Below, one piece after another: positions 33,277 to 51,140 of a DNA stretch of 64,000 nucleotides; position 1 is the first letter of the stretch; the number at the start of each line of letters is the position of its first letter. The notes beneath the pieces are model-generated. The model was given only the letters and a program-made list of their open reading frames with translations. It was not told the DNA's origin and ran no database searches. The DNA lies in the NCBI RefSeq assembly GCF_039634365.2, contig NZ_CP155079.2, forward strand, positions 310,001 through 374,000, given 5' to 3'. The translations under genes were made by a program, and so were the position numbers. The stretch comes from Mucilaginibacter sp. PAMB04168 (GTDB lineage Bacteria > Bacteroidota > Bacteroidia > Sphingobacteriales > Sphingobacteriaceae).

Positions 33277-36200
33277 ATGCGTTTTTTATATGTTTCCGGC
33301 TTGAAGCTATTGTTAATAGCCGCCTTGATATGCTATTATATGCAAACTAATGCGCAGTCCGGTCTTCAGACAGGCGTAGGTTTTCCTGCCGAAATTGAAA
33401 ACCCTGAGATTACCGGTATCGGTAAGGAACCGCATCATGCTACACTGATGCCTTATGCAAACCTGCAGGAGGCTTTGCGAGCTAAGCGGCACGCTTCTTC
33501 TTTTAGCAGGAGCCTGAACGGGCTATGGAAATTCAATTGGGTGCCCACGCCGCAATTACGTCCTATTAACTTTTATAACCCTGAGTTTGATGTTTCGTCC
33601 TGAAAAGAGATCCCTGTACCATCAAATTGGGAAGTTGAAGGATATGGAACTCCTTTTTACCGCAATTTGGGATACACCATTAAAAAAGATTTCCCGCACG
33701 TTATGAGCGAGCCGGATCAAAAATATACGGCATTTAAGGAGCGCAACCCGGTAGGAAGTTACCGAAGAGAGTTTGAGGTTCCAGCAGAGTGGGCTGGCCG
33801 GCGGCAGTTTATTACGTTCGACGGTGTTGACTGCGCCTTTTTTTTATGGGTGAACGGCAAAAAGGTGGGCTATAGTGTGAACAGTAGAAATGCAGCTGAG
33901 TTTGATGTTACCACGTTATTGAAACCAGGGAAAAATATGATTGCTGTTGAGGTTTATCAATATAGTTCGGGCACTTGGCTTGAAGATCAGGACATGTGGC
34001 GATTACATGGTATTTTTCGGAACGTAACTTTGTGGAGTGCCCCGCAAGTGCACATTCGTGATTTTTTTGTTCAAACCGACCTCGATAAAGAGTACCGGGA
34101 TGCCACTATAAATGTTTCTGCTATCATTAAAAATTATAGCGAGAAAGGTGCCGTGAGCCAGGTAGTTACAGCAACGCTCTACGACCGGAACGGGAAAGAA
34201 ATAGCCAGGGGCAATGCCAATGGGCACCGGCTTAATGCTAAGCAGGAAGAATCTTTGCAGTTAAAATTGCAGCTTGCCAATCCAGATAAGTGGACTGCTG
34301 AAACGCCCAATCTTTATACTTTGGTGTTGTCAGGTTCATCCGGAGAAATTCTTTCTACAAAAGTTGGCGTTCGCAAGATCGAGATTAAGGGCAGGGTTTT
34401 TATGGTAAACGGTGTGCCTATTAAGCTAAAAGGTGTAAACCGTCATGAACATTGGTCGGACGTAGGGCATGCGATTACCGAAGAGCAGATGATCCGCGAT
34501 CTGCAAATCATCAAGCAAGGAAACTGCAACCATGTTCGCACTTGTCATTACTCGGACGACCCACGCTGGTATGAACTATGTGATGAATGGGGCATTTGGT
34601 TGGTTGCCGAGGCGAACATGGAATATCATGGGTACGACAAAAAATTTGATGAGGAACCAACCATAAAAGCGGCCATTGTTGACCGTAATGTAGCTAACAC
34701 TCAAAATTTTAAAAACCACCCTGCAGTTATTATCTGGTCGTTGGGTAATGAAGGGGGTAATGGTGGATCAAATGTAAGGGCTGCCCTTAAAGCTGTTAAA
34801 GCAATAGATAGTACCCGCTTTGTTCACTATGAAAGGTTTGGCACCGGAAAAAATAATCCGGCCGACTTGGATGGCAGAATGTACGGCACTGCCGAAGACT
34901 ATGCCAACGTTGCCAGGAATAAGGAGCTGACCAAACCATTTTATATTTGCGAATTTGTACATGCAATGTTCAACTCTATGGGTTCATTGGAAGAGTATTC
35001 GCAGGTATTTGATAATAATGCCGAAATATTAGGTGGAGCAATATGGGAGTTCCAGGATCAGGGGTTATGGAACAAGCGCGATCCAAAACATCCCATACTG
35101 GCTTACGGCGGGGGCTTTGGCGAATACCCTAACGATCACTACTTTATTCATAAAGGTGTTGTAGCCTGGGACCGGAAGACCGTTAAGCCTCACTTTCCTG
35201 AAATGAAGAAGGCTTTTCAATGGATAGAAACACAGCTGGCGGATCCGGCTAACGGAACCATACGAATCAAAAATAAATACCAGTTCATCTCACTCGACGG
35301 TTTCGACGCTTCGTGGAGCTTAAGCGAAAACGGGCTCGAAATAGCAAAAGGAAAGCTTAAGTATCGACCCATTAACGCCCGGAGTACGGGGTCTGCCAAT
35401 GTTCCTTATAAAATCGAACATCCCAAAGCCGGCGCTGAATACTTTTTGCGCATATCTTACACACAAAAGGAAGCTACGCTGTGGGCTGATAAAGGCTTTG
35501 AAGTGGCTTCTGCACAGTTTAAGCTACCTGTTTACACGCCGCCTGTTAACACAATAGCAGATGTTCATCCGCTTAAATTAGAAGAGAACGTACAGGGTAT
35601 TGTGCTTTCCGGTAATCAGTTTTCGGTAAGTTTCAGTAAAAAAACAGGGTTCATTAATCAAATTAATAAGGCAGGGGTCCCCTTGCTTGCTCCAAATGGC
35701 TCGCCACGTTTGCACCTGTGGCGTGCTGCCCACAGGAACGACGATAATTGGGCTTTTGATATGTGGGAGCGATTTGGCGTAACTACGCTTAATTATAAGT
35801 TGGTGAGCATTAAGGCTGAGCGCGTAAGCAATGCCGCTGTAAAAGTTACTGCAGTTACCCATGCTGATGGAAAGGAAGGTTTTGGCGTATACCATACTGC
35901 AACTTACCTGGTTAAAGGGAGCGGAAACATAGTAGTAGATAACCAGGTGTCTTTTGTTGGGCTGCGAATTAACCTTGCCAGAATAGGCGTGCGTGTTTTG
36001 TTTGATAAGAGCTTTGACAAGATGGCCTTTTATGGACGTGGTCCGTTCGAAAACTATGCTGATCGTAAAAGCGCCGCTGACGTGGGAATTTACGAAATTG
36101 GTGTAAATGATCAGTATGAATATGAAAAACCCATGGAGCGTGGCAATCACGAAGAAGTTAGATGGGCTTCTTTCAGCGGTAAGGGCAAACCGCCCGTATT

Positions 36201-36426
36201 AATCCAGGCTGATGAAAAACTAATGCAGGTAGCGGCGCTTCCACATACCGATGAGCAGATGTATCCGGTAGAATATAAAATTGATCTTCCGGCAAGCACT
36301 GCAACTGTAGTTTGTATATCTACTAAAACGCTTGGTGTGGGCTCAGCCAGTTGTGGCCCGCGTCCTTTGGAATCTTTTCAGGTTTTTTCAGAGCCTACGC
36401 GTTTTTCATATACAATTAAACTATAA
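33277..36426 (+). pseudogene. GH2 beta-galactosidase-family gene interrupted by an in-frame TGA
   Basis: The frame encodes a complete LacZ-type GH2 enzyme of about 1049 codons, but codon 109 (33601-33603) is TGA. The reading FDVSS-stop-KEIPVPSNWEVEGYGTPFY matches the GH2 motif in which Trp stands at this place, so a TGG-to-TGA change is the simplest explanation. Everything else looks intact: signal peptide (ending TNAQ), sugar-binding and Ig-like domains, the barrel with acid/base Glu at codon 492 (WSLGNEGG) and nucleophile at codon 559 (YICEFVHAM), and the C-terminal Bgal_small_N domain. No ATG with a plausible ribosome-binding site restarts the frame. It may be a recent pseudogene, a sequencing error or a readthrough case. 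The ancestral role was exo-removal of beta-galactose or a related sugar. Confidence 0.9.
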
Positions 36427-37396: not shown

Positions 37397-38314
37397 TCAA
37401 GGTATCAGGTGGTTTGACGATAGCCAATTATATAAGTGATTAATCCACTTGTCATTTGTAGTCGTATTGTTCAGGCCATAACCGTGCCCACCAGCCTGGT
37501 ATATATGTATTTCGGCCTTAACTCCATGTGCGGATAACGATTTAAAATAGTTAATGCTATTTCCTACCGGTACTACTTTGTCGTTGGCACTATGAATCAG
37601 AAATGCCGGAGGTGTATTATCAGTTACCTGCATTTCGTTAGAATATTCCTTGGTCTTCTCTGCACTGGCATTTTCACCAATAAGCGCTTTTTTCGACCCT
37701 TTGTGTAACAAGCTGTCCTGAAAGCTAATGACAGGGTAAACTAATATCGAGAAATTTGGCCTTAAACTTATACTGTCGGGGTTCGCTATCAGTGCTTTTT
37801 GGTAATGAGTGGATAAAGTTGACGCTAAATGACCACCTGCCGAAAATCCGGCAATACCTATTTTGTCGGGTGCTATGTGCCACTCGGCCGCGCGCTGCCT
37901 TACTATTTGTATAGCCCTTTGTGCATCCTGTAGTGGCCCAATCTCTTTATTCTGCATGGTCTCATCGTTAGGTAGTCGATATTTTAAAACAAACGCGGCA
38001 ATCCCCCGGGTATTCAACTCACGGGCAACATTACGTCCTTCATCATTTACTACCAAGTAAGAGTAACCACCGCCTGGGCAAATAATAACTGCGGTTCCGT
38101 TTGCTAAAGCTGCATCTGGTAAATAGGCTGTAAGTGTAGGAAAAACTACTTTACTTACCTTGCCGCGCTTAACGGTAGTGTCATTAACCTCGCGTATACT
38201 ACTCTCTTTGGCATTGGGCACAATTTTATAAAGTGGCACAACGGTTTGAGCCTTTGCATTAAGTAAATTAAGCAAAAGGCCTAGTCCAAGCATCATAATT
38301 GGTAATCTTCTCAT
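37397..38314 (-). CDS. Secreted alpha/beta-hydrolase carbohydrate esterase
   Basis: Esterase of 305 residues with a signal peptide (ending NAKAQ), oxyanion motif CPGGGYS, nucleophile Ser158 in GFSAGG, Asp245 in HSANDK and His277 in GGHGYG. This is the BD-FAE/acetyl-xylan-esterase-like fold used by bacteria to remove O-acetyl or feruloyl groups from sugars. It is a paralogue of the truncated esterase at 1-534. This copy is divergent from a sialidase gene, and the GntR-type operator at 38353 lies 38 bp before its start codon. It may therefore deacetylate O-acetylated sialic acids, standing in for NanS; that substrate is an inference from position. Confidence 0.88.
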   Translation of the reverse strand: MRRLPIMMLGLGLLLNLLNAKAQTVVPLYKIVPNAKESSIREVNDTTVKRGKVSKVVFPTLTAYLPDAALANGTAVIICPGGGYSYLVVNDEGRNVARELNTRGIAAFVLKYRLPNDETMQNKEIGPLQDAQRAIQIVRQRAAEWHIAPDKIGIAGFSAGGHLASTLSTHYQKALIANPDSISLRPNFSILVYPVISFQDSLLHKGSKKALIGENASAEKTKEYSNEMQVTDNTPPAFLIHSANDKVVPVGNSINYFKSLSAHGVKAEIHIYQAGGHGYGLNNTTTNDKWINHLYNWLSSNHLIP

Positions 38315-38352: not shown

Positions 38353-38365
38353 TATGTAGTACATA
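38353..38365. promoter_or_regulatory. Candidate GntR (NanR-like) operator, copy 1
   Basis: TATGTAGTACATA, a perfect palindrome around one central base. It lies between the divergent esterase and sialidase genes, 20 bases upstream of a -7 element, so a bound repressor would cover the promoter of the sialidase and possibly that of the esterase. Confidence 0.8.
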
Positions 38366-38385
38366 AATATTTATAATGAATTAGT

Positions 38386-38393
38386 TAACTTTG
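38386..38393 (+). promoter_or_regulatory. Candidate -7 element of the sialidase promoter
   Basis: TAACTTTG matches the Bacteroidota consensus TAnnTTTG. It lies 55 bases upstream of the ATG at 38449. A clear -33 TTTG is not visible. Confidence 0.55.
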
Positions 38394-38448
38394 ATTATCA
38401 AGCACCTGCTTGAATTTCTTAATCAATCCATTAACCAATTTGAAACCG

Positions 38449-39798
38449 ATGAGAAAAATGTATCACCCAGTGTCACACCTTATGTTGGCACTTACCATCT
38501 CTTCCTGTATGTTAGTAACGGCATGCAGCAAAAAAAACCAGTTACCCGAAAAGTTGCCTGCAGATAATATCGTAGACGCCAAGACCGAAAATGATGTAAC
38601 TGACCCGCCTCCGTTTTTTACTATATTTCCCGAATCAGGAAATACCACCTATCACAGCTATCGCATTCCGGCTATCATCCGCTCAAAAAACGGTGTTTTA
38701 ATCGCTCTTGCCGAAGCACGAAAGAACAGTGATGATGATTGGGGCGATATCGACATTGTTTGCAGAAGGCTGTTAAAAACATCTACTGATGAAGTAAAGC
38801 CTGGAATAACAAACGCAGAGTGGACTTCGCAAACCGTTATTGCCGGTAACAACAACGTTGTACTGGACGATATTCCTAATGTACCCTCAGATGCGGTAGC
38901 CGAAAGCTACAGTAACCAGGGTACTTTTGGTAACCCTACGCTGGTAACAGATCAAACTACCGGCCGCGTATGGTTGTTCATGTCATTTAACGATAAGGAT
39001 CATTGTCAAAGCTGTAATAAAGTTGCAGGCGATGGTACGTATGACCAGTATAGTAATGTAACTAAATATGGCGATCGCAGGCTTTTTTTATGTTACAGCG
39101 ACGACGATGGCGCAACCTGGTCTACACCGGTTGACATGACCCAGGAGTTAACGCCAAACACTTATAAGTGGGATGCCGTAGGACCAGGGATTGGTATCCA
39201 AAAGCGGTTTGTGTCTCTCGAGAATACTTTGATAATCCCGGCAAATGGAAGAAATCTGTACAAAACGCCTACAGGCTCTTGGAGCTATGCTACCGTTCCG
39301 AGCGGAACAAGCGAAAGCACTATTATAGAAAGGCCTGACGGCAAATTATTAAGAAACGATCGTAAGGCACCTGCACCAGATATAACCGATTTAGCTAACA
39401 GATACAGGCAAACGTCAGCTTCTACTGATTTGCTCAACTGGACAGCACCTTTTCAGAACAACACTAAGTTAATGGATCCGATCTGCCAGGCGTCTATATT
39501 AAGATATACCGATGGCTCTACTACCAACAAAAGCCGGGTAATGTTCATGAACTCCAATCATCAAACCCAACGAAGACATCCGGCTATAAGAATTTCGTAT
39601 AACGAAGCGATAGATTGGCCTATAATACGTTCAATACCCAATAACGGGTCGGGTATTCTTGGCGGCTATACCAGTTTAGTAAAAACAGCCGATAACATGA
39701 CCGGAGCTTTAATTGAGTATAATTCCACTACATCCATGAATATTCAATATCATAAAATTAGCCTAGGCTGGATATTGAACGGTAACCCGGAACCGTAA
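38449..39798 (+). CDS. Lipoprotein sialidase-family (GH33) glycosidase
   Basis: Exo-alpha-sialidase-family protein of 449 residues from the ATG at 38449; upstream in-frame options use TTG at 38410. It has a lipobox LVTAC (Cys26), so it should be anchored, probably at the cell surface, releasing terminal sialic acid from glycoconjugates. Propeller features: YRIPAI (the FRIP-type motif with the first triad Arg), ALAEAR, one clear Asp-box SDDDGATW and a degenerate second SYNEAIDWP, with candidate catalytic Tyr in LIEYNS. GH33 proteins can also act on Kdo or Kdn. It is more divergent from classic sialidases than the copy at 40812, so its exact nonulosonic acid is uncertain. Confidence 0.85.
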   Translation: MRKMYHPVSHLMLALTISSCMLVTACSKKNQLPEKLPADNIVDAKTENDVTDPPPFFTIFPESGNTTYHSYRIPAIIRSKNGVLIALAEARKNSDDDWGDIDIVCRRLLKTSTDEVKPGITNAEWTSQTVIAGNNNVVLDDIPNVPSDAVAESYSNQGTFGNPTLVTDQTTGRVWLFMSFNDKDHCQSCNKVAGDGTYDQYSNVTKYGDRRLFLCYSDDDGATWSTPVDMTQELTPNTYKWDAVGPGIGIQKRFVSLENTLIIPANGRNLYKTPTGSWSYATVPSGTSESTIIERPDGKLLRNDRKAPAPDITDLANRYRQTSASTDLLNWTAPFQNNTKLMDPICQASILRYTDGSTTNKSRVMFMNSNHQTQRRHPAIRISYNEAIDWPIIRSIPNNGSGILGGYTSLVKTADNMTGALIEYNSTTSMNIQYHKISLGWILNGNPEP

Positions 39799-39816
39799 AT
39801 ACGATATATGCAACAC

Positions 39817-39856
39817 AAAAACAAAGAGGAGCTTACATAAGCTCCTCTTTGTTTTT
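39817..39856. terminator. Intrinsic terminator after the sialidase gene
   Basis: Perfect 18-bp inverted repeat (39817-39834 and 39839-39856) with loop ACAT. The outer base pairs are A5/T5, giving a U-tract on the plus strand. It isolates the sialidase gene from the regulator gene. Confidence 0.93.
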
Positions 39857-39928
39857 ATAAGTAAATTAGTGAAGGGCAATGCGCATCATAACCTTAGCGG
39901 TTTTATTACAAGCTGTTAGTAACTCTTT

Positions 39929-39941
39929 TATGCACTACATA
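39929..39941. promoter_or_regulatory. Candidate GntR operator, copy 2 (one mismatch)
   Basis: TATGCACTACATA, one base off the palindrome of the other copies. It is 39 bases upstream of the regulator gene's -7 element, suggesting weaker autoregulation. Confidence 0.65.
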
Positions 39942-39980
39942 AATAACGTAGAATTTTTAGCTCTGTAAAAAAGATACCAG

Positions 39981-39988
39981 TACCTTTG
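39981..39988 (+). promoter_or_regulatory. Candidate -7 element of the regulator gene
   Basis: TACCTTTG fits TAnnTTTG and lies 51 bases upstream of the ATG at 40040. Confidence 0.55.
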
Positions 39989-40039
39989 TAAATCGCACGG
40001 GTAATAGAGAACAAAACCATTTAAGCATTAACTATCACT

Positions 40040-40732
40040 ATGGTTATTCATAACAATTTAAGTAAAGACATAGAGCGGGTACCAACAGATACTATGGCCG
40101 ATGTAGTAGAGCTCCGTTTACGGGATTATTTTAAGAGGAAATCTTTTAAACCGGGCGATGCACTGCCAAAAGAACTTGAACTGGCTGAAGCTTTAGGTGT
40201 AAGCCGTAATGTTGTTAGAGAAGCGCTAAGCAGATTGCGAATGCTGGGTATGATTGAGTCGAAAAAGAAAAGGGGAATGATATTATCCAGCCCAGACATA
40301 CTTGGCGCTTTCGAGCGTATACTCGATCCGCTGATTATGACTGAAGATGCACTGAAGGATCTTTTTGAGTTACGTCTTGTATTGGAGATGGGACTTGCCG
40401 ATATCCTGTTCATCAATGTTACCGATAAGGCTATCAATGAGCTCGAACAAATTGCAAAGAGTGAAGTTCATGCACCGATGGAATTCAGGATTAAAAATGA
40501 GATTGCATTTCACGGCAAACTGTATGAAATTGCAGGCAATGATACGCTCAAGCGCTTTCAGATCATGCTGTTACCTGTTTTTGGATTTGTTATTAAAATG
40601 GAAAAAGAGGTTACCTACGGCAAGGTAACGCACCGCGATTTAGTTGAGCTGCTAAAAAAAGGTAATAAAGATGATTTTAGGCAGGGAATGTATGAGCACT
40701 TGAAACCCCATTTTGACAGGTTGAAAAAATAA
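40040..40732 (+). CDS. GntR-family (FadR/FCD subfamily) regulator, NanR-like
   Basis: 230-residue cytoplasmic transcription factor. The N-terminal winged helix-turn-helix (about 20-82) shows LPKELELAEALGVSRNVVREAL. The C-terminal FCD helical bundle (about 100-225) has metal/ligand-site His158 (FHGKLYE), His198 (THRDLVE) and His220 (YEHLKPH), as in metal-dependent FCD regulators such as NanR. It sits between two sialidase genes. The palindrome TATGTA(C/G)TACATA precedes it (one mismatch) and follows it by 6 bases, and also occurs at the other promoters of the locus. Most likely it is a sialic-acid-responsive repressor of the whole cluster and of itself. The inducer (Neu5Ac or a breakdown product) is inferred. 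Confidence 0.9.
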   Translation: MVIHNNLSKDIERVPTDTMADVVELRLRDYFKRKSFKPGDALPKELELAEALGVSRNVVREALSRLRMLGMIESKKKRGMILSSPDILGAFERILDPLIMTEDALKDLFELRLVLEMGLADILFINVTDKAINELEQIAKSEVHAPMEFRIKNEIAFHGKLYEIAGNDTLKRFQIMLLPVFGFVIKMEKEVTYGKVTHRDLVELLKKGNKDDFRQGMYEHLKPHFDRLKK

Positions 40733-40738
40733 CCTTTT

Positions 40739-40751
40739 TATGTACTACATA
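40739..40751. promoter_or_regulatory. Candidate GntR operator, copy 3
   Basis: TATGTACTACATA, perfect palindrome, 6 bases after the regulator stop codon and 13 bases upstream of the next gene's -7 element. It gives the second sialidase and sulfatase genes their own regulated promoter. Confidence 0.82.
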
Positions 40752-40764
40752 ATGATTTAATAAT

Positions 40765-40772
40765 TACATTTG
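40765..40772 (+). promoter_or_regulatory. Candidate -7 element of the second sialidase promoter
   Basis: TACATTTG fits TAnnTTTG and lies 39 bases upstream of the ATG at 40812. Confidence 0.6.
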
Positions 40773-40811
40773 TTTAAACGGTATTCTACCGGCATAACCA
40801 ATTATTGTCAA

Positions 40812-41966
40812 ATGAAATCATTAATCAAGAGTGCAATGTGGCGTAAAGCATTGCCTATCTGTTTTGTAGTATTGCTGGTTTTAATAAAACCAGGTTATTG
40901 TTTTGTAAAAGACAGCGTAGCAATAAACCACATTTACAAAGCAGGGGAGGGTGGCTATGCCTGTTTTAGGATACCGGCACTAATAACAACCACAAATGAT
41001 GCGTTATTGGCATTTGCCGAAGCCCGCAAAGCTGATTGCGGCGATTCGGGCGATATAGATCTCGTTGTAAAAAGATCTGATAATGGGGGCAAGACGTGGG
41101 GGGCCATGCAGTTGGTTTGGAGTGACTCGACTAATACCTGCGGCAACCCTGTACCCATCGTGGACCGAACCAACGGGCATATTGTGTTAATCAGTACCTG
41201 GAATTTGGGCACTGATCATGAAAAAGATATTATAGCCGGTACCAGCAAGGATGGGCGCCGGGTTTATGTGTTACAATCTGACAACCAGGGCAAAAGCTGG
41301 TCCAAACCCCGCGAAATCACCTCTTCTGTTAAAATGACCAACTGGACCTGGTATGCTACAGGACCCTGCCACGGCTTGCAAATAGAAAACGGCCAGCACA
41401 AGGGCAGGTTGGTTGTTCCTGTTAATCATATAGAAGCGCCTTCTAATAAGAATTTTTCTCATACCATTTATTCGGACGATCATGGGGCAACCTGGAAGTT
41501 AGGCAGCAACACCCCACAGGATATGATGAATGAGACGACTTTGGCAGAAATTAGTGGTAGCCGCCTGATGCTTAACATGCGCAATGCAAACCGTAGCATA
41601 CGCACCCGAAATACGAGTACAAGTACCGATGGGGGGCAAACCTGGAGTAATGTAAGAAATGACAGCGTGCTGGTTGAACCTATTTGCCAGGGGAGCTTGC
41701 TTAACTTCAACATCCGCAAAAAGCCGGTGCTGCTGTTTATTAACCCTGCAAACAAAGCGAAGCGCATGAATTTAACACTGCGCATGAGTTACGATGACGG
41801 GCAAACCTGGCCCGTTTCAGAAATAATTTATCCTGGCCCATCTGCCTATTCAGACATTTCCATTTATAAGAATAAAAATGTGGCTGTATTGTATGAGTGT
41901 GGCGTCGCTAAACCTTACGAAGGCATTGCTTTTAAAGTAGTTAGTAAGTTTTTAAACAAGCCATAA
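40812..41966 (+). CDS. GH33 exo-alpha-sialidase (neuraminidase)
   Basis: Secreted sialidase of 384 residues. I use the ATG at 40812 because the longer frame starts with TTG inside the -7 element; 40812 gives a signal peptide ending near PGYCF. The six-bladed propeller has the motif CFRIPAL with the first triad Arg and five Asp-boxes (SDNGGKTW, SDNQGKSW, SDDHGATW, STDGGQTW, SYDDGQTW). Glu in MNETTLAE, Arg in MLNMRNANR and Tyr in VLYECG fit the active-site Glu, triad Arg and nucleophilic Tyr. It cleaves terminal sialic acids, probably in the periplasm. The sulfatase gene follows 87 bp on. Confidence 0.93.
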   Translation: MKSLIKSAMWRKALPICFVVLLVLIKPGYCFVKDSVAINHIYKAGEGGYACFRIPALITTTNDALLAFAEARKADCGDSGDIDLVVKRSDNGGKTWGAMQLVWSDSTNTCGNPVPIVDRTNGHIVLISTWNLGTDHEKDIIAGTSKDGRRVYVLQSDNQGKSWSKPREITSSVKMTNWTWYATGPCHGLQIENGQHKGRLVVPVNHIEAPSNKNFSHTIYSDDHGATWKLGSNTPQDMMNETTLAEISGSRLMLNMRNANRSIRTRNTSTSTDGGQTWSNVRNDSVLVEPICQGSLLNFNIRKKPVLLFINPANKAKRMNLTLRMSYDDGQTWPVSEIIYPGPSAYSDISIYKNKNVAVLYECGVAKPYEGIAFKVVSKFLNKP

Positions 41967-42053
41967 AATATAGAGCACAGGTCGCAATGCTTTAAGCTTT
42001 TACAAGCTGAGCATAGCAAACTGATTAAAACTTTATTCTAAGCTCATTATTTT

Positions 42054-43502
42054 ATGAAATGTATAGTAAGCTGTTACCTACGCCTATTTAGGTATGGTAA
42101 CGTAAAGTTCTTCCTAACCTTTTGCTGTTGTTTATCTGTTCTGCCTTCATTCGCGCAGCAGAAGAAAAATGTATTGTTTATTGTGGTAGACGATTTTCGG
42201 CCTGCGTTAGGATGTTACGGCGACCGCGTAGCCGTATCGCCTAATATTGACAGGTTGGCCGCCATGGGTACCATTTTTAAATCAGCGTATTGCCAGCAGG
42301 CTGTATGCGCACCTTCCAGAGCATCGTTCATGACCGGAAAGAAGCCTGATCATACTAAGGTGTGGAATTTAACCACACATTTTAGAAAAGCGCTGCCCAA
42401 TGTGATAACCATGCCTGAGTACTTTAAAAGTAACGGCTACTACGCACGGCAAATTGGCAAGATTTATCATGATCCTAAAGCTGCCCAGGATGCCCGTTCA
42501 TGGAGTGTTCCGGAGCTATTTGCTGTTACCACAAACCTGGGCAAGTATGTTTTGGATTCTAATTTAGTACGGGCACCCAAAGCTAACGCAGCAGAGGCGG
42601 CCAATGTAGCTGACAGCGCTTATATTGATGGTATGGTAGCTAATGCCGCTATAAAGGAGTTGCAGTTGGTGCAAAAGAAGCCTTTCTTTTTGGCTGTTGG
42701 CTTCAGGCGGCCTCACTTGCCTTTTAGTGCGCCGCTTAAGTATTGGAATAACAATGCCGGCAAGGTATTCCCTTTATCAACTGATACTGCTGCGGGTTTG
42801 CATGTGCCCAGGTATTCCATACACCATTCAGTTGAGTTAAGAGGATATCAGGATATTCCGGATTTAGGGCCAATAAATAAGGAACTATCAGCCGAGTTAA
42901 TTAAGGGATATTATACAGCCGTGTCGTTTACTGATGAGCAAATCGGAAAAGTGCTTAGTGAGCTTAGTCGGCTCAAACTTGATCAAAGCACTATAGTAGT
43001 AATATTAAGTGATCATGGCTTTCATTTGGGCGAGCACGGTATGTGGGGTAAAACAACCAATTCAAAAATTGACACACGTGTACCACTTATTATTTACGAT
43101 CCTTCACAAACAAAAGCACCGCGAGCAACGGTAGCAACAGTTGAGTTGGTTGACTTGTATGCTACATTATCTGATTTGTGCGGATTGCCCATTCCCAAAA
43201 CCGATGGGCAAAGCTTTGCTAATATTATAAAAGGAAAACCTTACTTAGGAAGGGGCATGGCCTTTAGTCAGTTTCCCGACGACATGAAATTTGACCAGCA
43301 GCCTAAGGTTATGGGTTATGCCATTCATAACAACCGTTTTGGTTACACAGAGTGGATAGATGTGCCTACCGGTAAAGTGCTGGCGCAGGAATTATACGAT
43401 TACCACGCAGACCCTGCTGAAAATGCCAACGTAGCAGCAAAGCCTAAATACCGCCGGCAAGTGGCGTTTTTCCATCAACAAGTAGATTTATACCGTAAAT
43501 AA
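42054..43502 (+). CDS. Secreted sulfatase (iduronate-2-sulfatase-like, S1 family)
   Basis: Sulfatase of 482 residues with a long-n-region signal peptide (ending PSFAQ). Metal-binding VVDDFRP and the modification motif CAPSR (Cys85, converted to formylglycine by an anaerobic-type or FGE maturase encoded elsewhere) are present, followed by SDHGFHLGEHGMWGK, typical of the iduronate-2-sulfatase-like subfamily. It lies between a sialidase and the SusCD pair under the same predicted regulon, so it may remove sulfate from sialylated, mucin-like or glycosaminoglycan-type glycans, or from sulfated sialic acid itself. The start at 42054 is the only in-frame ATG before the mature part. Confidence 0.92.
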   Translation: MKCIVSCYLRLFRYGNVKFFLTFCCCLSVLPSFAQQKKNVLFIVVDDFRPALGCYGDRVAVSPNIDRLAAMGTIFKSAYCQQAVCAPSRASFMTGKKPDHTKVWNLTTHFRKALPNVITMPEYFKSNGYYARQIGKIYHDPKAAQDARSWSVPELFAVTTNLGKYVLDSNLVRAPKANAAEAANVADSAYIDGMVANAAIKELQLVQKKPFFLAVGFRRPHLPFSAPLKYWNNNAGKVFPLSTDTAAGLHVPRYSIHHSVELRGYQDIPDLGPINKELSAELIKGYYTAVSFTDEQIGKVLSELSRLKLDQSTIVVILSDHGFHLGEHGMWGKTTNSKIDTRVPLIIYDPSQTKAPRATVATVELVDLYATLSDLCGLPIPKTDGQSFANIIKGKPYLGRGMAFSQFPDDMKFDQQPKVMGYAIHNNRFGYTEWIDVPTGKVLAQELYDYHADPAENANVAAKPKYRRQVAFFHQQVDLYRK

Positions 43503-43545
43503 ACACCGGCTGATTAAGAGATTACAGAAAAATAAATTTATTTAT

Positions 43546-43558
43546 TATGTACTACATA
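43546..43558. promoter_or_regulatory. Candidate GntR operator, copy 4
   Basis: TATGTACTACATA, perfect palindrome, 12 bases upstream of a -7 element and 38 bases upstream of the SusC start. It should control the long downstream operon up to the NHL gene. Confidence 0.82.
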
Positions 43559-43596: not shown

Positions 43597-46500
43597 ATGA
43601 AACTTAAACTCAACTACATTGTTGGTTGCCTTCTCTTGCTGGCATTCAGCATGGTGAAGGCGCAAACGGGTACACCGATAACCGTGTCCGGCACAGTTAC
43701 CGATGGAACCAAAAACGAAATGCTTCCGGGTGTGAGTGTTACCGTTAAAGGTAGCAGCACCGGCGCCATTACTGATGTTAACGGTAAGTTCACTGTAAAA
43801 GCTCCATCTCCTAATGCTGTACTGGTATTTACCTATGTAGGCTACGACAATCAGGAAGTGCCTGTAAATGGCCGTTCTCAACTTAACGTTTCTATGGCGG
43901 CCAACAGCAAATCGCTTTCAGAAATTGTAGTAGTGGGTTACACCACTCAAACCCGCGATAAAAATACCGCTGCCATCAGTTCGCTTGATACTAAGCAGTT
44001 GGTAAATACGGCTAATCCAAGCCCGCTGGCAGCTATACAAGGTAAAATAGCCGGTGTTTCTTTGCCTTTATCAAATGGTCAGCCCGGTTCGGCGCCGGCC
44101 AATATCATTATTCGCGGCGGTACCAAGGCTAACGTATACGGTTCTGGTACAGGTAATGCCAATGGTACACAATACCTAAATTCAGAAGGTTCGAGCCCAT
44201 TGGTAGTTATTGATGGTGTGTACCGTACCATCAATGACATTAACCCCGACGATATTGAAACGCTTCAGGTAATGAAAGATGCTGCATCGACGGCAATTTA
44301 TGGTGCACGTGGTGCCAATGGTGTTATTGTGGTTAAAACTAAAGGGGGCAAATTTGGGCAGGGCAAAATTAACGTTACGCTCAACTACCGCACTAACCGC
44401 GAGGTGCCTACCGGTAAACGCGATTACATGTCGGCTGCAGAATATTTAGTGCTGGCGCGTACTACTATGCAAAATACCACCGATCCGTTGGATAAGAATT
44501 TTTACTTGACCAACGGCGGTTTCTCTGCCGGTTATAAACTGTTCACCGCCAAAGGACAGTATGGTGTAGATCCCTATACTACTGCACTTTTAAGCAATAT
44601 TGTGGCCATAGAGGGGCAGGGATATGTAAATAACCTGCTTGCAAAAGGTTATCAAACCATGCCCGATCCTATTAACCCGGCAAACACATTGCTGTATTAC
44701 GATAACAATTATCAAAACTTGCTATGGAACACGGTTACCACTAATACCTATAACCTGGGTATAGATGGTGGCAGCCAGAATTCGAGCTTTAACGTATCGT
44801 TTAACTACGTTGACCAACCAGGCACGTTTGTAGGTACTAAATATAAGCGTTACAGTGGGTTAGCTAATTTCAGCTTCAAAGCAAGTAATAACGTTCAAAT
44901 CAACACTTCGTTAAACTATCAAAACATTCAACCTAATTACGTAAATGGTTATACCAACGAATTAGTAAGGGCTACAAGGGTAACACCGCTTGTAAGAATA
45001 TTTAAAGACGACGGAACGCCAAGTTTTGGTGAGGTAACCAGTACACGCAACCGTTTCCACACGCTGGCTTACGATAATTATCAGATATCTACAGAACGTA
45101 CCGTTTCGCGGGTTGATTTGGACTGGAATATTATAAAAGGACTGCATTTCAGGCCAGCCGTGTCATACATGATGACTGATTACAGCAACCAGTTTAATCG
45201 TAAGGCTTACAATGATCTTGTTCAGCTGCCTGCGCCAAGGTTAAAGGTAGATAGTACAAACAATCAGCGCCAGTTAATGATAGACCAGGTTTTGCAGTAT
45301 GACCATACTTTCAAAAATGATCATCATTTATCGGTATTGGGTGGTTTCAGTTATCAACTAAACAAATTGCATTATGTGGATATCAGCTCGCAGCGCGGTA
45401 GTAACGATTATGTAACCACCATTAGCGAGAACCCAACAACAGTAATAAACGGAAGTACGGTATCTAACGTTTTGCCCACTAATTACGGCACTTTCTCCAG
45501 GGTTGATAAAACCGCCAGTATTTACGGCCAATTCGGCTATGATTTTAAAGGCAAATACCTTTTAAATGCTACAGTTAGGCGCGATGGTTTCTCAAACTTT
45601 GCACCCAATAACCGGTATGCTTTCTTCCCTTCCGTAGCAGCTGGCTGGAATATCTATAAGGAGAGTTTTTGGAAAGATAATAATGCCGTAAGCACACTTA
45701 AACTGCGTGGCAGTTGGGGGCAGGTAGGCGCCTCCGACTTACAATACACCGATACTTACGGCGGCTATACAGCTAACGCGTATAACACACTTTCGGGTAT
45801 ACAACGGTCAAACTTGGCCAATCCTAATCTTAAATGGGAAACCACAGAAACCACAGATCTGGCTATTGACGCTGGTTTCTTAAAAGATAGGATTACATTA
45901 ACGGTTGATCTTTATAATAAATTGACCAAAGACCGGCTTGATTCTAAACCGCTGCCTGCCGAAGCTCCTTTCTCTTCTATTTTCTTTAACAACGGTACAT
46001 TGCGTAACAGAGGTATTGAAGTTGAGTTGGGCGCAACTGTGCTACGCTTAAAAGATTTTCAGTGGCGCACTAACATAGCTTACGCCTACAATTCACAAAA
46101 AATCATTTCGTTACCCTTCAACGGCCGCTTAAAAAACCGGCAGGGAGGTGGTGTTATAGCCGACCCTAATACAGGTAAGGATATGGAAGTAGGCGGTTTG
46201 GCCGAAGGCGAACGACCGTACGGTTACTATGCATGGCAGGTAGTAAAGGTGTTTAGTACCGAAGCCGAGGCAGCCGAGTGGAATAAAACACACAAAGATT
46301 TGGTACCAACATCAGTAGGGCAGGCCAATGGCAAACATGCCGGCGATTACGAGTTCCAGGATGTTAACAACGATGGTGTAATTGATAGCAAAGACCTTGT
46401 TTTTCAGGGCTACAAAACGCCTAATGTAACCGGCGGCATGCAAAACACTTTCACTTACAAAAACTTTACCCTGCGCTTTAATATGGACTTTGCCTTGGGC

Positions 46501-46965
46501 CATGTCATATCAGACGGTGGCCTTGCACGTGAACTGGGCGTAGGCCGTGCCTTTAATGAAGGTGCACCCAGGGAGGCTTTGGGTAATAACATCTGGAAGC
46601 AATCGGGTGACGGGGATAAAAAATACGCCCGCTACTCTTTTGCTGATGCCAATTTTGGGCAATTCAATTATATCAGGCAAGCATCGTCTGATGTAGGAAC
46701 CGGCAGTGCTTACGCTTCAGACGTTTCCAGAATGATTGCAAAGGGTGATTTCCTGGCTTTTAGAGAACTGTATTTAGCTTATAACCTGCCTAAAAGCATT
46801 TTATCAAAGATCAAGGCAACTGGTCTTACAGTATTTGTAAGCGGTACCAATCTGGGTTACTTAACAGCCTATAAGGGTCAAAATCCTGAAACTTACACTG
46901 GTTTCGATCCCGGAGGTTACCCGCGCCCACGGCAGTACACATTTGGTGCTTCATTGAGATTTTAA
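43597..46965 (+). CDS. SusC-like TonB-dependent transporter, NanO-like by context
   Basis: Outer-membrane transporter of 1122 residues: signal peptide (ending VKAQ), carboxypeptidase-regulatory-like domain (about 28-105; VSGTVTDGTKNEMLPGVSV), TonB-box region LSEIVVVGY, plug (PLVVIDGVYRT; GANGVIVVKTKGG) and barrel ending YTFGASLRF. With the SusD partner 11 bp downstream it matches the place of NanO/NanU in the sialic-acid loci of Tannerella and Bacteroides, which take up free sialic acid over the outer membrane. Longer oligosaccharide cargo is equally possible. It is preceded by the predicted regulator operator at 43546. Confidence 0.93.
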   Translation: MKLKLNYIVGCLLLLAFSMVKAQTGTPITVSGTVTDGTKNEMLPGVSVTVKGSSTGAITDVNGKFTVKAPSPNAVLVFTYVGYDNQEVPVNGRSQLNVSMAANSKSLSEIVVVGYTTQTRDKNTAAISSLDTKQLVNTANPSPLAAIQGKIAGVSLPLSNGQPGSAPANIIIRGGTKANVYGSGTGNANGTQYLNSEGSSPLVVIDGVYRTINDINPDDIETLQVMKDAASTAIYGARGANGVIVVKTKGGKFGQGKINVTLNYRTNREVPTGKRDYMSAAEYLVLARTTMQNTTDPLDKNFYLTNGGFSAGYKLFTAKGQYGVDPYTTALLSNIVAIEGQGYVNNLLAKGYQTMPDPINPANTLLYYDNNYQNLLWNTVTTNTYNLGIDGGSQNSSFNVSFNYVDQPGTFVGTKYKRYSGLANFSFKASNNVQINTSLNYQNIQPNYVNGYTNELVRATRVTPLVRIFKDDGTPSFGEVTSTRNRFHTLAYDNYQISTERTVSRVDLDWNIIKGLHFRPAVSYMMTDYSNQFNRKAYNDLVQLPAPRLKVDSTNNQRQLMIDQVLQYDHTFKNDHHLSVLGGFSYQLNKLHYVDISSQRGSNDYVTTISENPTTVINGSTVSNVLPTNYGTFSRVDKTASIYGQFGYDFKGKYLLNATVRRDGFSNFAPNNRYAFFPSVAAGWNIYKESFWKDNNAVSTLKLRGSWGQVGASDLQYTDTYGGYTANAYNTLSGIQRSNLANPNLKWETTETTDLAIDAGFLKDRITLTVDLYNKLTKDRLDSKPLPAEAPFSSIFFNNGTLRNRGIEVELGATVLRLKDFQWRTNIAYAYNSQKIISLPFNGRLKNRQGGGVIADPNTGKDMEVGGLAEGERPYGYYAWQVVKVFSTEAEAAEWNKTHKDLVPTSVGQANGKHAGDYEFQDVNNDGVIDSKDLVFQGYKTPNVTGGMQNTFTYKNFTLRFNMDFALGHVISDGGLARELGVGRAFNEGAPREALGNNIWKQSGDGDKKYARYSFADANFGQFNYIRQASSDVGTGSAYASDVSRMIAKGDFLAFRELYLAYNLPKSILSKIKATGLTVFVSGTNLGYLTAYKGQNPETYTGFDPGGYPRPRQYTFGASLRF

Positions 46966-46976
46966 CCTATAAAAAC

Positions 46977-48428
46977 ATGAAAATGAGAAAAATATTCTTT
47001 GCGGCAGGCCTGTTAGGCTTAACGCTGGCAGGAACAACCTCCTGCAATAAATTATTAGATGTTACACCGCAGTCGCAAATCACTGGACAAGTTTACTTTA
47101 AAAGCGAAGGCGATTTCGATCCTTTTGTTATCGGCAATTATGCCTCTATACGCGCATTTGCAAACTCCTTTACTTATGGTACCGAGCGTAGCGAAGAATT
47201 GGCGCAAGGGCCAAACTCACGTTTAACAAGCGTGTGGCTGCAAACCATTACGCCTACAACAAATGCCTTTAACTACAACGGGCAGTACAGAGCTATTGGT
47301 GCTTCTAACTTACTTTTAGAGCAGATTGAGCCATTCCAATTTAGCAGCGCGGCCGTTAAGAACAGAATAAAAGCCGAAGCTTTATGCCAACGGGCTTATA
47401 CCTATTTATTTTTGGTTAGGGTTGTTGGTGATACGCCTTTAATGCTGCAGGCCATTACTGACGATAATGTGCCCCTGCTGCCGCGCGCTAAGGCGGCTGA
47501 TGTGATGAAACAGATATTTTCTGATTTAGACATGGCTATCAGCTTGTTCCCAGATAAATCCTATGCCAATAAGTATCGCTTTAGCTGGGGCGCAGCACAA
47601 GCTTTAAAGGCCGAAGCTAAACTTTGGAGTGCCAAAGTACTGGGCGGCGGTGCAACTGACTTTAATGATGCTATTGCCGCATGTGCAGCTGTTGAAACCA
47701 CGGGTGTAAGCTTATTGAATAACTTTAAAGATGTAACCACCACACGCGCCAATGCAGAGGTTATCATGGCTGCCTATTATCAGCGCGACGAGACTGGTGC
47801 CAATTACGGACTAAATGCATTGCCGTACCTGCAAAGTGTGCAAAACGCATCTAATTTAGATAGCATACCTTATGCTAAAACTACAACAAATGGCCAGGGC
47901 GGTTACCAAATCAGCCTAAAAAGCCGCCAACTGTTTAGCGGTTTAACTAATGACAAACGCAAGCCGTTTACCTTCATTACCGAGCGCGTTGGCACAACGG
48001 TTAGAAATAGCTATGTTATCAAATTGCCGGGTAACGTGTACCCTGATGACCGTGTTTCTGACAATGATGTAATCATGTGGCGGTTGGCCGACGTTTACCT
48101 GATGGAAGCTGAAGCTTACGCAGGGGTTAATAACACTACCAAAGCTATCGAATATCTCGACAAGGTGCGCGTACGTGCCGGCAACGGCGCTTATACGGGT
48201 GCAACAGATAAAGCTACTGTTGAACGCGCCATATTTGATGAGCGTGGCCGCGAGTTGTTTTTTGAGAACAAACGCTGGTATGATATTGTGCGCTTTCACT
48301 TTGGCAACACCATTAATGCTTACGATTATGTGCCAAATCTTGTAGGTAAAAAAACACCATTATTCTGGCCGCTGTCAGCAAGCGTACTTGCTGCAAATTC
48401 TCAATTAGTACAAACAGCAGGGTATTAA
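46977..48428 (+). CDS. SusD-like binding lipoprotein, NanU-like by context
   Basis: RagB/SusD-family lipoprotein of 483 residues with lipobox TTSC (Cys23), then NKLLDVTPQSQITGQVYF. Family blocks: KAEALCQRAYTYLFLVRVVGDTPL (over the first TPR helices), WRLADVYLMEAEAYAG and DERGRELFFENKRWYDIVRF. It pairs with the SusC above and should bind sialic acid or a sialylated or sulfated fragment at the cell surface. At 483 residues it is clearly shorter than the two SusD proteins of the xylan locus (591 and 632). Confidence 0.93.
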   Translation: MKMRKIFFAAGLLGLTLAGTTSCNKLLDVTPQSQITGQVYFKSEGDFDPFVIGNYASIRAFANSFTYGTERSEELAQGPNSRLTSVWLQTITPTTNAFNYNGQYRAIGASNLLLEQIEPFQFSSAAVKNRIKAEALCQRAYTYLFLVRVVGDTPLMLQAITDDNVPLLPRAKAADVMKQIFSDLDMAISLFPDKSYANKYRFSWGAAQALKAEAKLWSAKVLGGGATDFNDAIAACAAVETTGVSLLNNFKDVTTTRANAEVIMAAYYQRDETGANYGLNALPYLQSVQNASNLDSIPYAKTTTNGQGGYQISLKSRQLFSGLTNDKRKPFTFITERVGTTVRNSYVIKLPGNVYPDDRVSDNDVIMWRLADVYLMEAEAYAGVNNTTKAIEYLDKVRVRAGNGAYTGATDKATVERAIFDERGRELFFENKRWYDIVRFHFGNTINAYDYVPNLVGKKTPLFWPLSASVLAANSQLVQTAGY

Positions 48429-48488: not shown

Positions 48489-49268
48489 ATGAAACACACA
48501 TCATTATTCAACTATAAAGCACTTAATGAAGATGAGTTGAAATCTTTCAAAGAAAACGGTTTCTTGGTTATCAAAAGTATTCTTACTAAGGAGGGCCTTA
48601 ACCAGATGCAAACTGAAAGCATGGCCGCGTGGGCTCGTGAAAAAGAATCATTTGATCCTACTAAAAGCTGGCTTCAAAACTCACTGCTGGTAAACATTCA
48701 TCACCAGGCGCCAACTGTTCGTAATTATTATTTTGAAGGACCGCTGGTTGATATAGCTTCACAGGTTATTGGGCCCAATATTAAAGGAGCTACTTCGCAG
48801 CTTACATTTAAAATGCGGGGCAACACCAAGCCCTTTGGCTGGCATCAGGATAACGGCTATGGCGAACTGGAGCCTTACAATGCTATAACAACACTTACTG
48901 CGCTTGATGATACCGACCGTGGTAACGGTTGCTTGTGGTTAATTCCCGGCAGTCACAAACAAGGCCAGATTAAAGTTAATCAGGATGAAGAGCAGAAAAA
49001 AACGCAGTCGGAAATTATAGTTGAGGCAGATGATTCACTTGCTGTACCGATGGAAATGCAGGCAGGCGATGTGCTTATATTTAATTGCTGGATGCTTCAT
49101 AAATCCGACGGCAATTATTCAACTGATCGTGACCGGCGTATCCTTTTCCTTCGCTATGCTGATGCTGATGCAGTTGAGGTTTATAACGATAGGAAGCCCA
49201 GGCTTGGCCGGTTGGTTAAAGGCGCAACCCGGTTTACTGAAGTGTCAGAATTTGAAGCCAATATATAA
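48489..49268 (+). CDS. Phytanoyl-CoA dioxygenase (PhyH)-family Fe(II)/2-oxoglutarate oxygenase
   Basis: Cytoplasmic 259-residue oxygenase, no signal peptide. The iron facial triad is visible as His119 and Asp121 (GWHQDNGYGE) and His204 (WMLHKSDGN). Arg216/217 (RDRRILFLR) would bind 2-oxoglutarate, and GNGCLWLIPGSHKQG is the family's conserved segment. Such enzymes hydroxylate small molecules or remove alkyl groups oxidatively; the substrate cannot be read from sequence. The next gene's ATG follows its stop codon directly, so it is translated together with two aldolases of the NanA/DapA family. A role in converting a modified nonulosonic acid or its breakdown product is inferred from this context only. 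Confidence 0.88.
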   Translation: MKHTSLFNYKALNEDELKSFKENGFLVIKSILTKEGLNQMQTESMAAWAREKESFDPTKSWLQNSLLVNIHHQAPTVRNYYFEGPLVDIASQVIGPNIKGATSQLTFKMRGNTKPFGWHQDNGYGELEPYNAITTLTALDDTDRGNGCLWLIPGSHKQGQIKVNQDEEQKKTQSEIIVEADDSLAVPMEMQAGDVLIFNCWMLHKSDGNYSTDRDRRILFLRYADADAVEVYNDRKPRLGRLVKGATRFTEVSEFEANI

Positions 49269-50204
49269 ATGAGGCTTACTGCTGAAACTTTAAAGGGAAA
49301 TTGGGCCACACTGCTACTGCCAGTTAATACGGATGATTCAATCAACTACACACTGCTGGCCGAGGAAATTGACCAATTGATAGCAGCTCAGGTAGATGGC
49401 ATTTATTCAAATGGATCGGCGGGTGAGTTTCATAACCAAACCGAAGCTGAATTTGATAAAATAAACGAGTTGCTCGCGAGTAAATGCAGAATGGCCGGTA
49501 TGCCGTTTCAGATAGGTGCGTCGCATCCGTCTCCCATCATATCAAAAGAGCGCCTGCAAAGAAGCGTAGCCTTGCTGCCAGATGCTATCCAGGTTATACT
49601 GCCTGATTGGATAGTAGCTAACCAGCAGGAGCAAGTAAGCTTTTTGCAGGGAATGAGCCATGCTGCTGCCGGTATACCTCTGGTGCTTTATAATCCGCCG
49701 CATGCCAAAATGGTTTTGCCGCCACAGGCTTACGCTGGCTTTAAAGATTTAGTCCTCAGCCTTATTGGCATAAAAGTACTGAGCGGTGATGTGCAATGGG
49801 TTAATGATATGAAGCGGTATGGCAAGCACCTTTCAGTATTTGTACCGGGGCATATGTTAGCCACTGGCTTCGCCAATGGCATTGCGTCTGGCGCTTACTC
49901 AAATGTAGCCTGCATTAACGCAAAAACCGCCCAACAATGGTGGGATGATATGCAAACAGATATTAACTCGGCTCTCGATTTGGAGTTTCGAATCCAGCAG
50001 TTTTTTAAAGAATGTATAGTGCCGTATCAGCAACAACGATTTTCTAACCCAGCACTTGATAAATTTTTGAGTGCGGTAGGGGGTTACATAAACGTAGGAA
50101 CGCGTTTGCGCTGGCCATATCACTTTATTAGCGAGGATGAGGTGCTCACGGCAAGGAAGCGCGCCCAGGCACTGATACCCGAATTTTTTACTACAAAACA
50201 TTAA
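49269..50204 (+). CDS. DapA/NanA-superfamily aldolase or dehydratase, unknown substrate
   Basis: Cytoplasmic 311-residue class I aldolase-type (beta/alpha)8 barrel. The Schiff-base Lys is Lys169 in LIGIKVLSGD and the catalytic Tyr is Tyr141 in PLVLYNPP. The pyruvate-carboxylate-binding motif reads GSAGEF, where DapA has GTTGES, so the keto-acid site appears kept. The C-terminal half is divergent (PYHFISEDEVLTARKRAQ). It is distinct from the N-acetylneuraminate lyase encoded immediately after it (stop and start codons abut). It probably cleaves or dehydrates another 2-keto-3-deoxy acid made in this pathway. Which one is unknown. Confidence 0.85.
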   Translation: MRLTAETLKGNWATLLLPVNTDDSINYTLLAEEIDQLIAAQVDGIYSNGSAGEFHNQTEAEFDKINELLASKCRMAGMPFQIGASHPSPIISKERLQRSVALLPDAIQVILPDWIVANQQEQVSFLQGMSHAAAGIPLVLYNPPHAKMVLPPQAYAGFKDLVLSLIGIKVLSGDVQWVNDMKRYGKHLSVFVPGHMLATGFANGIASGAYSNVACINAKTAQQWWDDMQTDINSALDLEFRIQQFFKECIVPYQQQRFSNPALDKFLSAVGGYINVGTRLRWPYHFISEDEVLTARKRAQALIPEFFTTKH

Positions 50205-51140
50205 ATGAATATGAAAATAAACGGAATAGTAGCAGCAACATTTGCAGCCTATCATGAAGACGGAACACTTAATACGGAGATTATAGCAACGCTGGTTGAA
50301 AAGCTAATAGGAGATGGTGTTTCGGGTGTATACATATGCGGCACTAACGGCGAGGGCCCCAACATGTCAGTTGAGGAACGTATGGCTGTTGCCGAAGCCT
50401 ATGTAAAAGCTGCCAATAAACGCATATTGGTGCTTGTACATGTAGGTCATACCTCAATTGCCGAGTGTAAAAAGCTGGCAGCACATGCCGCTTCCATTGG
50501 TGCTGATGCATTTTCGTCAGTAGCGGCATTTTACTTTAAGCCGGTATCGGTACAAAACCTGGTCGATTGTATGGCCGAGATAGCTTCAGCTGCGCCGCAG
50601 CTGCCTTTTTATTACTATCATATGCCTACGTTAACAGGTGTGGGTATGGATATGGTTGATTTCTTAAAAATAGGCGGACAGCAGATACCCAATCTTGCAG
50701 GTATAAAGTATACAGCATCTACGTTGTACGAGTACCAGGCCTGCCTGAACGTTGAAGACGGAAGATATGAAGCGCTTTACGGATTTGATGAGATGCTGCT
50801 TCCTGCTTTATCGGTTGGCGCAGTAGGTGCAATTGGCAGTACCTATACCTTTGCCGCGCCTGTATATTTAGACCTCATTAAAAATTACCGTGCTGGTAAT
50901 CACGAAGAGGCAAAACGCCTGCAACTGTTAATGGTAAACATCATTCGTTGTATTATTAAACATCCATCCATTGCTGCACAAAGAGCCATTATGCACATGC
51001 TGGGTTTTGATATGGGTAATCCACGTTTGCCACTTGCGCCGTTGTCTGCCCAGAGTTATGCCCAATTAAAAGGCGATCTGGAATCAGAAAGCTTCTTTGA
51101 GCTGCTTAATCAATACGCAAATCAAACTGCTAATGCATAA
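50205..51140 (+). CDS. nanA: N-acetylneuraminate lyase (sialic acid aldolase), eukaryotic-NPL-like
   Basis: Cytoplasmic 311-residue aldolase that splits N-acetylneuraminate to N-acetylmannosamine and pyruvate. Lys168 in AGIKYTA forms the Schiff base and Tyr138 lies in PFYYYHMPTLTGV; the carboxylate loop is CGTNGEG. From memory, these blocks and the late GSTYTF and MGNPRLPL resemble vertebrate NPL (PFYYYHIPALTGV, GSTYNY, MGPPRLPL) more than Escherichia coli NanA. It is the central enzyme of the locus. The downstream mutarotase start codon overlaps its stop region by 8 bases, indicating translational coupling. Confidence 0.93.
   Translation: MNMKINGIVAATFAAYHEDGTLNTEIIATLVEKLIGDGVSGVYICGTNGEGPNMSVEERMAVAEAYVKAANKRILVLVHVGHTSIAECKKLAAHAASIGADAFSSVAAFYFKPVSVQNLVDCMAEIASAAPQLPFYYYHMPTLTGVGMDMVDFLKIGGQQIPNLAGIKYTASTLYEYQACLNVEDGRYEALYGFDEMLLPALSVGAVGAIGSTYTFAAPVYLDLIKNYRAGNHEEAKRLQLLMVNIIRCIIKHPSIAAQRAIMHMLGFDMGNPRLPLAPLSAQSYAQLKGDLESESFFELLNQYANQTANA

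Follow-up and report, generated by a model that had tools for sequence, protein, structure and literature searches.

In Escherichia coli, the genes for sialic acid use are targets of the repressor NanR, a protein in which a GntR domain is joined to an FCD domain (PDB 6on4, 6wfq) and whose operator consists of GGTATA repeats (PMC8012715). Within the Bacteroidota, regulation of sialic acid use has been predicted for NanR of Bacteroides thetaiotaomicron (BT0433), which, as a ROK protein, belongs to an unrelated family (PMC3878776). The operators of the FadR subfamily, exemplified by FadR, LldR, and PdhR, are palindromes with a GT-N3-AC core, and the survey of this subfamily included no member from the Bacteroidota (PMC4494728). 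For Sphingobacterium, a genus of the Sphingobacteriaceae in which both a sialidase and an aldolase specific for Kdn are known (PMC10017367, PMC5778107), no regulator or operator of Kdn utilisation was found described in the literature; nor was any bacterial regulator for Kdn, or any operator of the AusR-like alginate regulators, which were considered as relatives.

In this article, a locus of Mucilaginibacter sp. PAMB04168, another member of the Sphingobacteriaceae, is analysed within a window of 64,000 nucleotides (contig NZ_CP155079.2, positions 310,001 to 374,000). The locus has aldolases related to those of Sphingobacterium and a Kdnase-like sialidase. It is highly probable, judging from sequence comparison, that a FadR-subfamily repressor encoded at 40040-40732 binds a palindrome at four sites and thereby silences the sialic-acid locus. 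A FadR-type sialoregulator is known, as in E. coli; the palindromic operator and the probable control of a SusCD locus set the present one apart, in a phylum whose predicted NanR is a ROK protein. No earlier description of this regulator or operator was found in the literature, most subscription journals and RegPrecise being outside the scope of the search.

Genes and Operators of the Locus

The genes and operators are as follows, in window coordinates.

37397-38314, minus strand: secreted esterase, an alpha/beta-hydrolase of BD-FAE type that may act as a sialate O-acetylesterase; counted in the regulon on grounds of synteny
38353-38365: operator 1, TATGTAGTACATA, shared between sialidase A on the plus strand and the divergent esterase on the minus strand
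38449-39798, plus strand: sialidase A, a lipoprotein of GH33-like type with fungal Kdnases as its nearest matches (7p1b, 3e-58; 2xcy, 3e-57)
39929-39941: operator 2, TATGCACTACATA, with one mismatch, upstream of nanR and 39 bp before TACCTTTG
40040-40732, plus strand: nanR-like regulator of the FadR subfamily, GntR N-terminal and FCD C-terminal (PF00392, 3e-16; PF07729, 5e-11)
40739-40751: operator 3, TATGTACTACATA, upstream of sialidase B and 13 bp before TACATTTG
40770-41966, plus strand: sialidase B, GH33, with a FRIP motif and five Asp boxes (BNR_2, 1.5e-37; 4fj6, 3e-42)
42054-43502, plus strand: sulfatase, 87 bp after sialidase B
43546-43558: operator 4, TATGTACTACATA, upstream of susC and 12 bp before TATATTTG
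43597-46965, plus strand: SusC/TonB-dependent receptor
46977-48428, plus strand: SusD-like lipoprotein
48489-49268, plus strand: PhyH-type Fe/2-oxoglutarate oxygenase, a conserved regulon member (PF05721, 7e-31)
49269-50204, plus strand: divergent aldolase of the DHDPS/NanA family, DHDPS1 (PF00701, 3e-13)
50205-51140, plus strand: NanA-family sialic acid aldolase in which TNGEG replaces STGEG
51142-52269, plus strand: NanM-like kelch mutarotase (PF24996, 2e-39); in the ORF call it begins further upstream, at 51097
52308-53546, plus strand: MFS transporter (PF07690, 2e-61)
53543-54487, plus strand: NHL/six-bladed propeller protein, whose gene closes the apparent susC operon and is followed by a gap of 195 bp

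Since no gap between susC and the NHL gene exceeds 60 bp, these genes look like one operon. Operator 1, which the preliminary description had not connected with the esterase, lies also 38 bp from the start of that divergent gene, and the pairing of esterase and operator is kept in seven other loci (L018, L019, L020, L022, L042, L049, and L144). The sulfatase has an operator of its own in two loci where the gene is located elsewhere (L145 and L147), which suggests sulfated sialoglycans or a sulfated sialic acid as substrate. The PhyH-type oxygenase and the divergent DHDPS-family aldolase (48489-50204, plus strand) belong to the conserved part of the regulon in Pedobacter relatives, and their substrate may be a modified sialic acid. 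Upstream of the locus, a GH2 beta-galactosidase gene (33277-36426, plus strand) has one in-frame stop after residue 108 and could be a pseudogene or reflect a sequencing error.

The preliminary description had reported four palindromes, in front of each sialidase gene, the GntR/FCD gene, and susC, and had found no other in the window. Three of them prove to be exact (38353, 40739, and 43546) and the one at 39929 has one mismatch, and their downstream genes are indeed a GH33-like sialidase, the GntR/FCD gene, a second GH33 sialidase, and susC. With up to two mismatches allowed, the window holds six matches, so that only two poor ones (9160 and 44831) are added to the four, while 100 shuffles gave a mean of 1.43 and a maximum of 4. 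The confinement extends to the genome, which was scanned by pattern search with mismatches for copies at unrelated genes: its two contigs, 5.44 Mb in all, contain TATGTASTACATA without mismatch at three places, all of them in this locus. One mismatch adds the site at 39929 and four others, three within ORFs that are unrelated and one between genes, close to a ferritin-like gene. Exact ATGTNSNACAT cores elsewhere in the genome (1027548, 259773, 2631694, and 4048957) are all within ORFs and add no regulon member.

The Regulator Protein

Both Pfam domains of the regulator score above their cut-offs (PF00392, 59.2 bits; PF07729, 43.7 bits), and its predicted model (pLDDT 83) has FadR-subfamily structures, including E. 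coli NanR (E 2.6e-8), as its top Foldseek matches. The NCBIfam model for NanR (NF003011) is still the best-scoring one, although its 79 bits fall below the cut-off of 260. Residues R112, E154, and H158, placed by pairwise alignment, and H198 and H220, matched by the FCD pattern, correspond to R128, D172, H176, H222, and H244 of E. coli NanR. These metal ligands and the carboxylate-binding Arg, by which E. coli NanR holds Neu5Ac, are conserved in 63-64 of 64 orthologs, the exchange of D172 for E154 being conservative. Ligands of the NanR type on a fold of the FadR type make a sugar-acid inducer likely.

The regulator thus resembles E. coli NanR in its domains, in the carboxylate Arg and metal ligands, with Asp replaced by Glu, and in its predicted sialic-acid gene targets, and it would share the repressor logic. 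It differs in several respects: the identity is about 23%, the N-terminal extension is about 13 residues shorter, and the genes that it would control form a SusCD locus with sialidases. The operators differ as well, as had been claimed at the outset, with single 13-bp palindromes here in place of the direct GGTATA repeats.

Conservation of the Operator Across Genomes

The comparison set comprised 20 named relatives and about 80 loci from further genomes. Ortholog loci (n = 64) were defined by a regulator with at least 57.5% identity to the window protein; they include near-identical strains, and the counts are therefore not all independent. An unbiased search over all six-base half-sites of gapped palindromes in these loci returned TATGTA-N-TACATA as by far the most frequent among intergenic palindromes whose half-sites stand one base apart: it was exact in 30 loci, and the next best half-site reached 3. 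Matches to the palindrome with one mismatch numbered 100 in intergenic DNA, which makes up only about one tenth of the sequence, against 3 in coding DNA, and were spread over 59 of the 64 loci; for 59 palindromes with permuted half-sites, the mean was 1.3 intergenic matches and the maximum 6. It could be argued that such palindromes are chance products of AT-rich promoters, the half-site being AT-rich itself. The shuffles, the permuted palindromes, the genome-wide confinement, and the cross-genome conservation are all contrary to this reading, whose probability is negligible; a chance origin is ruled out by the conservation.

The operator also follows the regulator. Among 400 genomes of the host's family, exact copies were present in 37 of 61 with an ortholog and in 36 of 339 without one (p = 1.7e-16). 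In genomes with an ortholog, 11 exact copies at a distance from nanR, in nine loci, were inspected, and every one stands before a homologue of a gene of this locus, namely an esterase, sialidase A, sialidase B, a sulfatase, or susC; none of the 11 copies inspected in genomes without an ortholog lies beside such genes, and 8 of these are inside genes. The 64 ortholog loci, the remote copies, and the co-occurrence with the regulator together support the original reading of a GntR-family sialic-acid regulon. The sites, their confinement to the locus, their conservation, their linkage to the regulator, and their geometry are direct results of sequence analysis.

How far the association with sialic acid extends is a separate matter. 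Homologues of the sialidase, aldolase, or mutarotase occur in 58 of the 64 ortholog loci, and the remaining 6 have none within about 9 kb, which counts against the proposed regulon, as does the absence of the exact core from 8 of the 64. A wider reading, which we regard as rather unlikely, is that the palindrome is a common operator type of this FCD branch, whose regulators govern various glycan loci, sialic acid being only one of their subjects. Consistent with it, a locus of Agaribacillus (L034), whose regulator is 53% identical, carries two exact copies at genes for GH28, a sodium symporter, myo-inositol oxygenase, and SusCD, and the sister clade has TATGTNNNACATA at other SusCD loci. An exact operator at such a pectin-type locus suggests that the operator belongs to the protein branch and not to the sugar. 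The 58 orthologs with sialidase, aldolase, or mutarotase homologues and the remote copies at genes of this same locus argue against it, and it bears on the family rather than on this genome. Across the family as a whole, the operator is not restricted to sialic acid. In the comparison set, one contig labelled Thalassovita (L035) carries SusC/SusD and a regulator of the Bacteroidota type, and is probably a misbinned MAG contig.

Operator Position and the Proposed Mechanism

Promoters of the Bacteroidota follow a scheme of -33 and -7 elements. The TAnnTTTG boxes that the preliminary description had placed shortly downstream of three operators are confirmed, starting at 38386, 40765, and 43571, that is, 20, 13, and 12 bases past operators 1, 3, and 4. 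In 114 operator-gene pairs, the box starts mainly 21-33 bp after the start of the operator, with a cluster at 25-26 bp, or else 9-12 bp before it. With such spacing, the operator would overlap either the -33 element or the start site just after -7, and both placements are, as predicted promoters go, blocking positions for a repressor. In the window, the predicted blocking geometry holds at the sialidase B and susC sites, roughly at the sialidase A site, and not at the nanR site.

The nanR site speaks against the repressor model: it has a mismatch, and the nearest exact -7 box, at 39981, starts 39 bases past its end, so that operator 2 is apparently not at the standard blocking position for the nanR promoter. 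Relatives (L018 and others) have a better placed copy before nanR, with the -7 box 21 bp from the operator start. Because the copy in the window starts 52 bp upstream of the box, it would be compatible with activation of that one promoter, and the regulator might be an activator from these sites. We consider this very improbable, as the operators in the 114 pairs overlap the -33 element or the start site, and activation is disfavoured by position.

From these results we infer binding, repression, and an inducer. In the proposed mechanism, a dimer of the regulator would bind the 13-bp palindrome, with its GT-N3-AC core, at the four sites and silence the esterase, the two sialidases, the sulfatase, SusC/D, the oxygenase, the two aldolases, the mutarotase, and the MFS transporter, probably in five transcripts. 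With the operator over the -33 region (in relatives also over the start-site region just after -7), the bound dimer would block RNA polymerase. The repressor would be released when the metal-containing FCD pocket binds a sugar acid, either Neu5Ac or Kdn, set free by the sialidases.

Central Base and Residue 57

The core of FadR-type operators (GT-N2/3-AC) is found as ATGTNNNACAT at three of the four window sites and in 57 of 65 loci. The flanks depart from the FadR-type pattern (TATGT here, TKGT there), and the central base is invariably C or G, as it is in all 96 such sites at orthologs. In a sister clade, whose regulators are 43-54% identical, 28 of 34 sites have a central A or T. The distinction is matched in the recognition helix, where residue 57 is Asn with a central C/G in 98 of 98 cases and Thr with a central A/T in 27 of 31. 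Mapped through FadR, this residue is position 39 of the HTH numbering in PMC4494728, the position that was linked there to the central operator bases. The same study found that Arg at an outer-contact position prefers G; the window regulator has Leu46 in its place, and the site has A/T where FadR-type sites usually have G, so that the A/T in the operator agrees with the absence of Arg at position 46.

The tree places most of the covariation of Asn57 with the central base on one well-supported split (98/98), and the covariation therefore appears largely to reflect one deep divergence. In one locus (L068, genome G178), a regulator of the Asn57 clade stands in tandem with a second whose identity to the window protein is about 49%, a natural setting in which crosstalk could be studied.

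Kdn or Neu5Ac as the Possible Natural Inducer

Kdn (deaminoneuraminic acid) is a little-studied sialic acid. It would be cut by a Kdnase-like sialidase and split by the aldolase into mannose and pyruvate, so that no ManNAc epimerase would be needed. With the same repressor and operator, the natural inducer and substrate could be Kdn rather than Neu5Ac, with the sister clade serving Neu5Ac, a reading that we judge well worth considering, if still somewhat less probable than its contrary.

Several comparisons favour it. Sialidase A is much closer to fungal Kdnases (3e-58) than to bacterial sialidases (about 2e-15), as is its homologue in L069, and Kdnase-like sialidases are encoded at 14 of 65 ortholog loci and at none of 33 sister-clade loci. 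Homologues of the GlcNAc epimerase (AGE) show the reverse distribution (0/65 against 9/33, p = 2e-5); five of the sister-clade matches are strong and full-length, giving p = 0.003 alone, and four are partial ones at locus ends. The aldolase has Asn (Asn48) where the sister-clade and canonical enzymes have Thr (37/37 against 0/23), and the Kdn-specific sialidase and aldolase of Sphingobacterium provide a parallel (PMC10017367, PMC5778107). On the other side, sialidase B is an unremarkable GH33 sialidase, a Kdnase-like gene is missing from the surroundings of most ortholog loci, an AGE gene is present elsewhere in the genome, and a review gives the Kdn aldolase mutation as Asp50. Taken together, the Kdnase-like sialidase A, the aldolase Asn, and the absence of AGE from these loci suggest that Kdn may be the inducer instead of Neu5Ac or ManNAc, and Kdn may thus be regarded as a serious candidate.

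A separate locus of the genome (L142, 1940000-1958000) combines GH20, SusCD, an AGE epimerase, and NagB. No operator was found at this AGE/NagB/GH20 locus (1.95 Mb), and the use of ManNAc or GlcNAc seems to lie outside the regulon.

More tentatively, two sister FCD repressors may divide the sialic acids between them in the Bacteroidota, one with Asn57, central-C/G operators, and Kdn loci that combine a Kdnase-like sialidase with an Asn48 aldolase and lack an epimerase, and the other with Thr57, central-A/T operators, and Neu5Ac loci with AGE. This is possible, though on balance unlikely.

Implications

With this analysis, sialic acid use in the Sphingobacteriaceae and related Bacteroidota acquires a regulator, an operator, and a set of genes that can be tested, and the regulon adds members that are missed by gene-by-gene reading, namely the esterase, the sulfatase, and the oxygenase. 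The central base offers a means of telling two regulator clades apart by a single position, and the locus points to Kdn. If the division between the sister repressors is true, it would represent a natural switch of operator specificity at one base pair, and the Asn57 loci governed by Kdn would be, to our knowledge, the first Kdn-responsive regulon.
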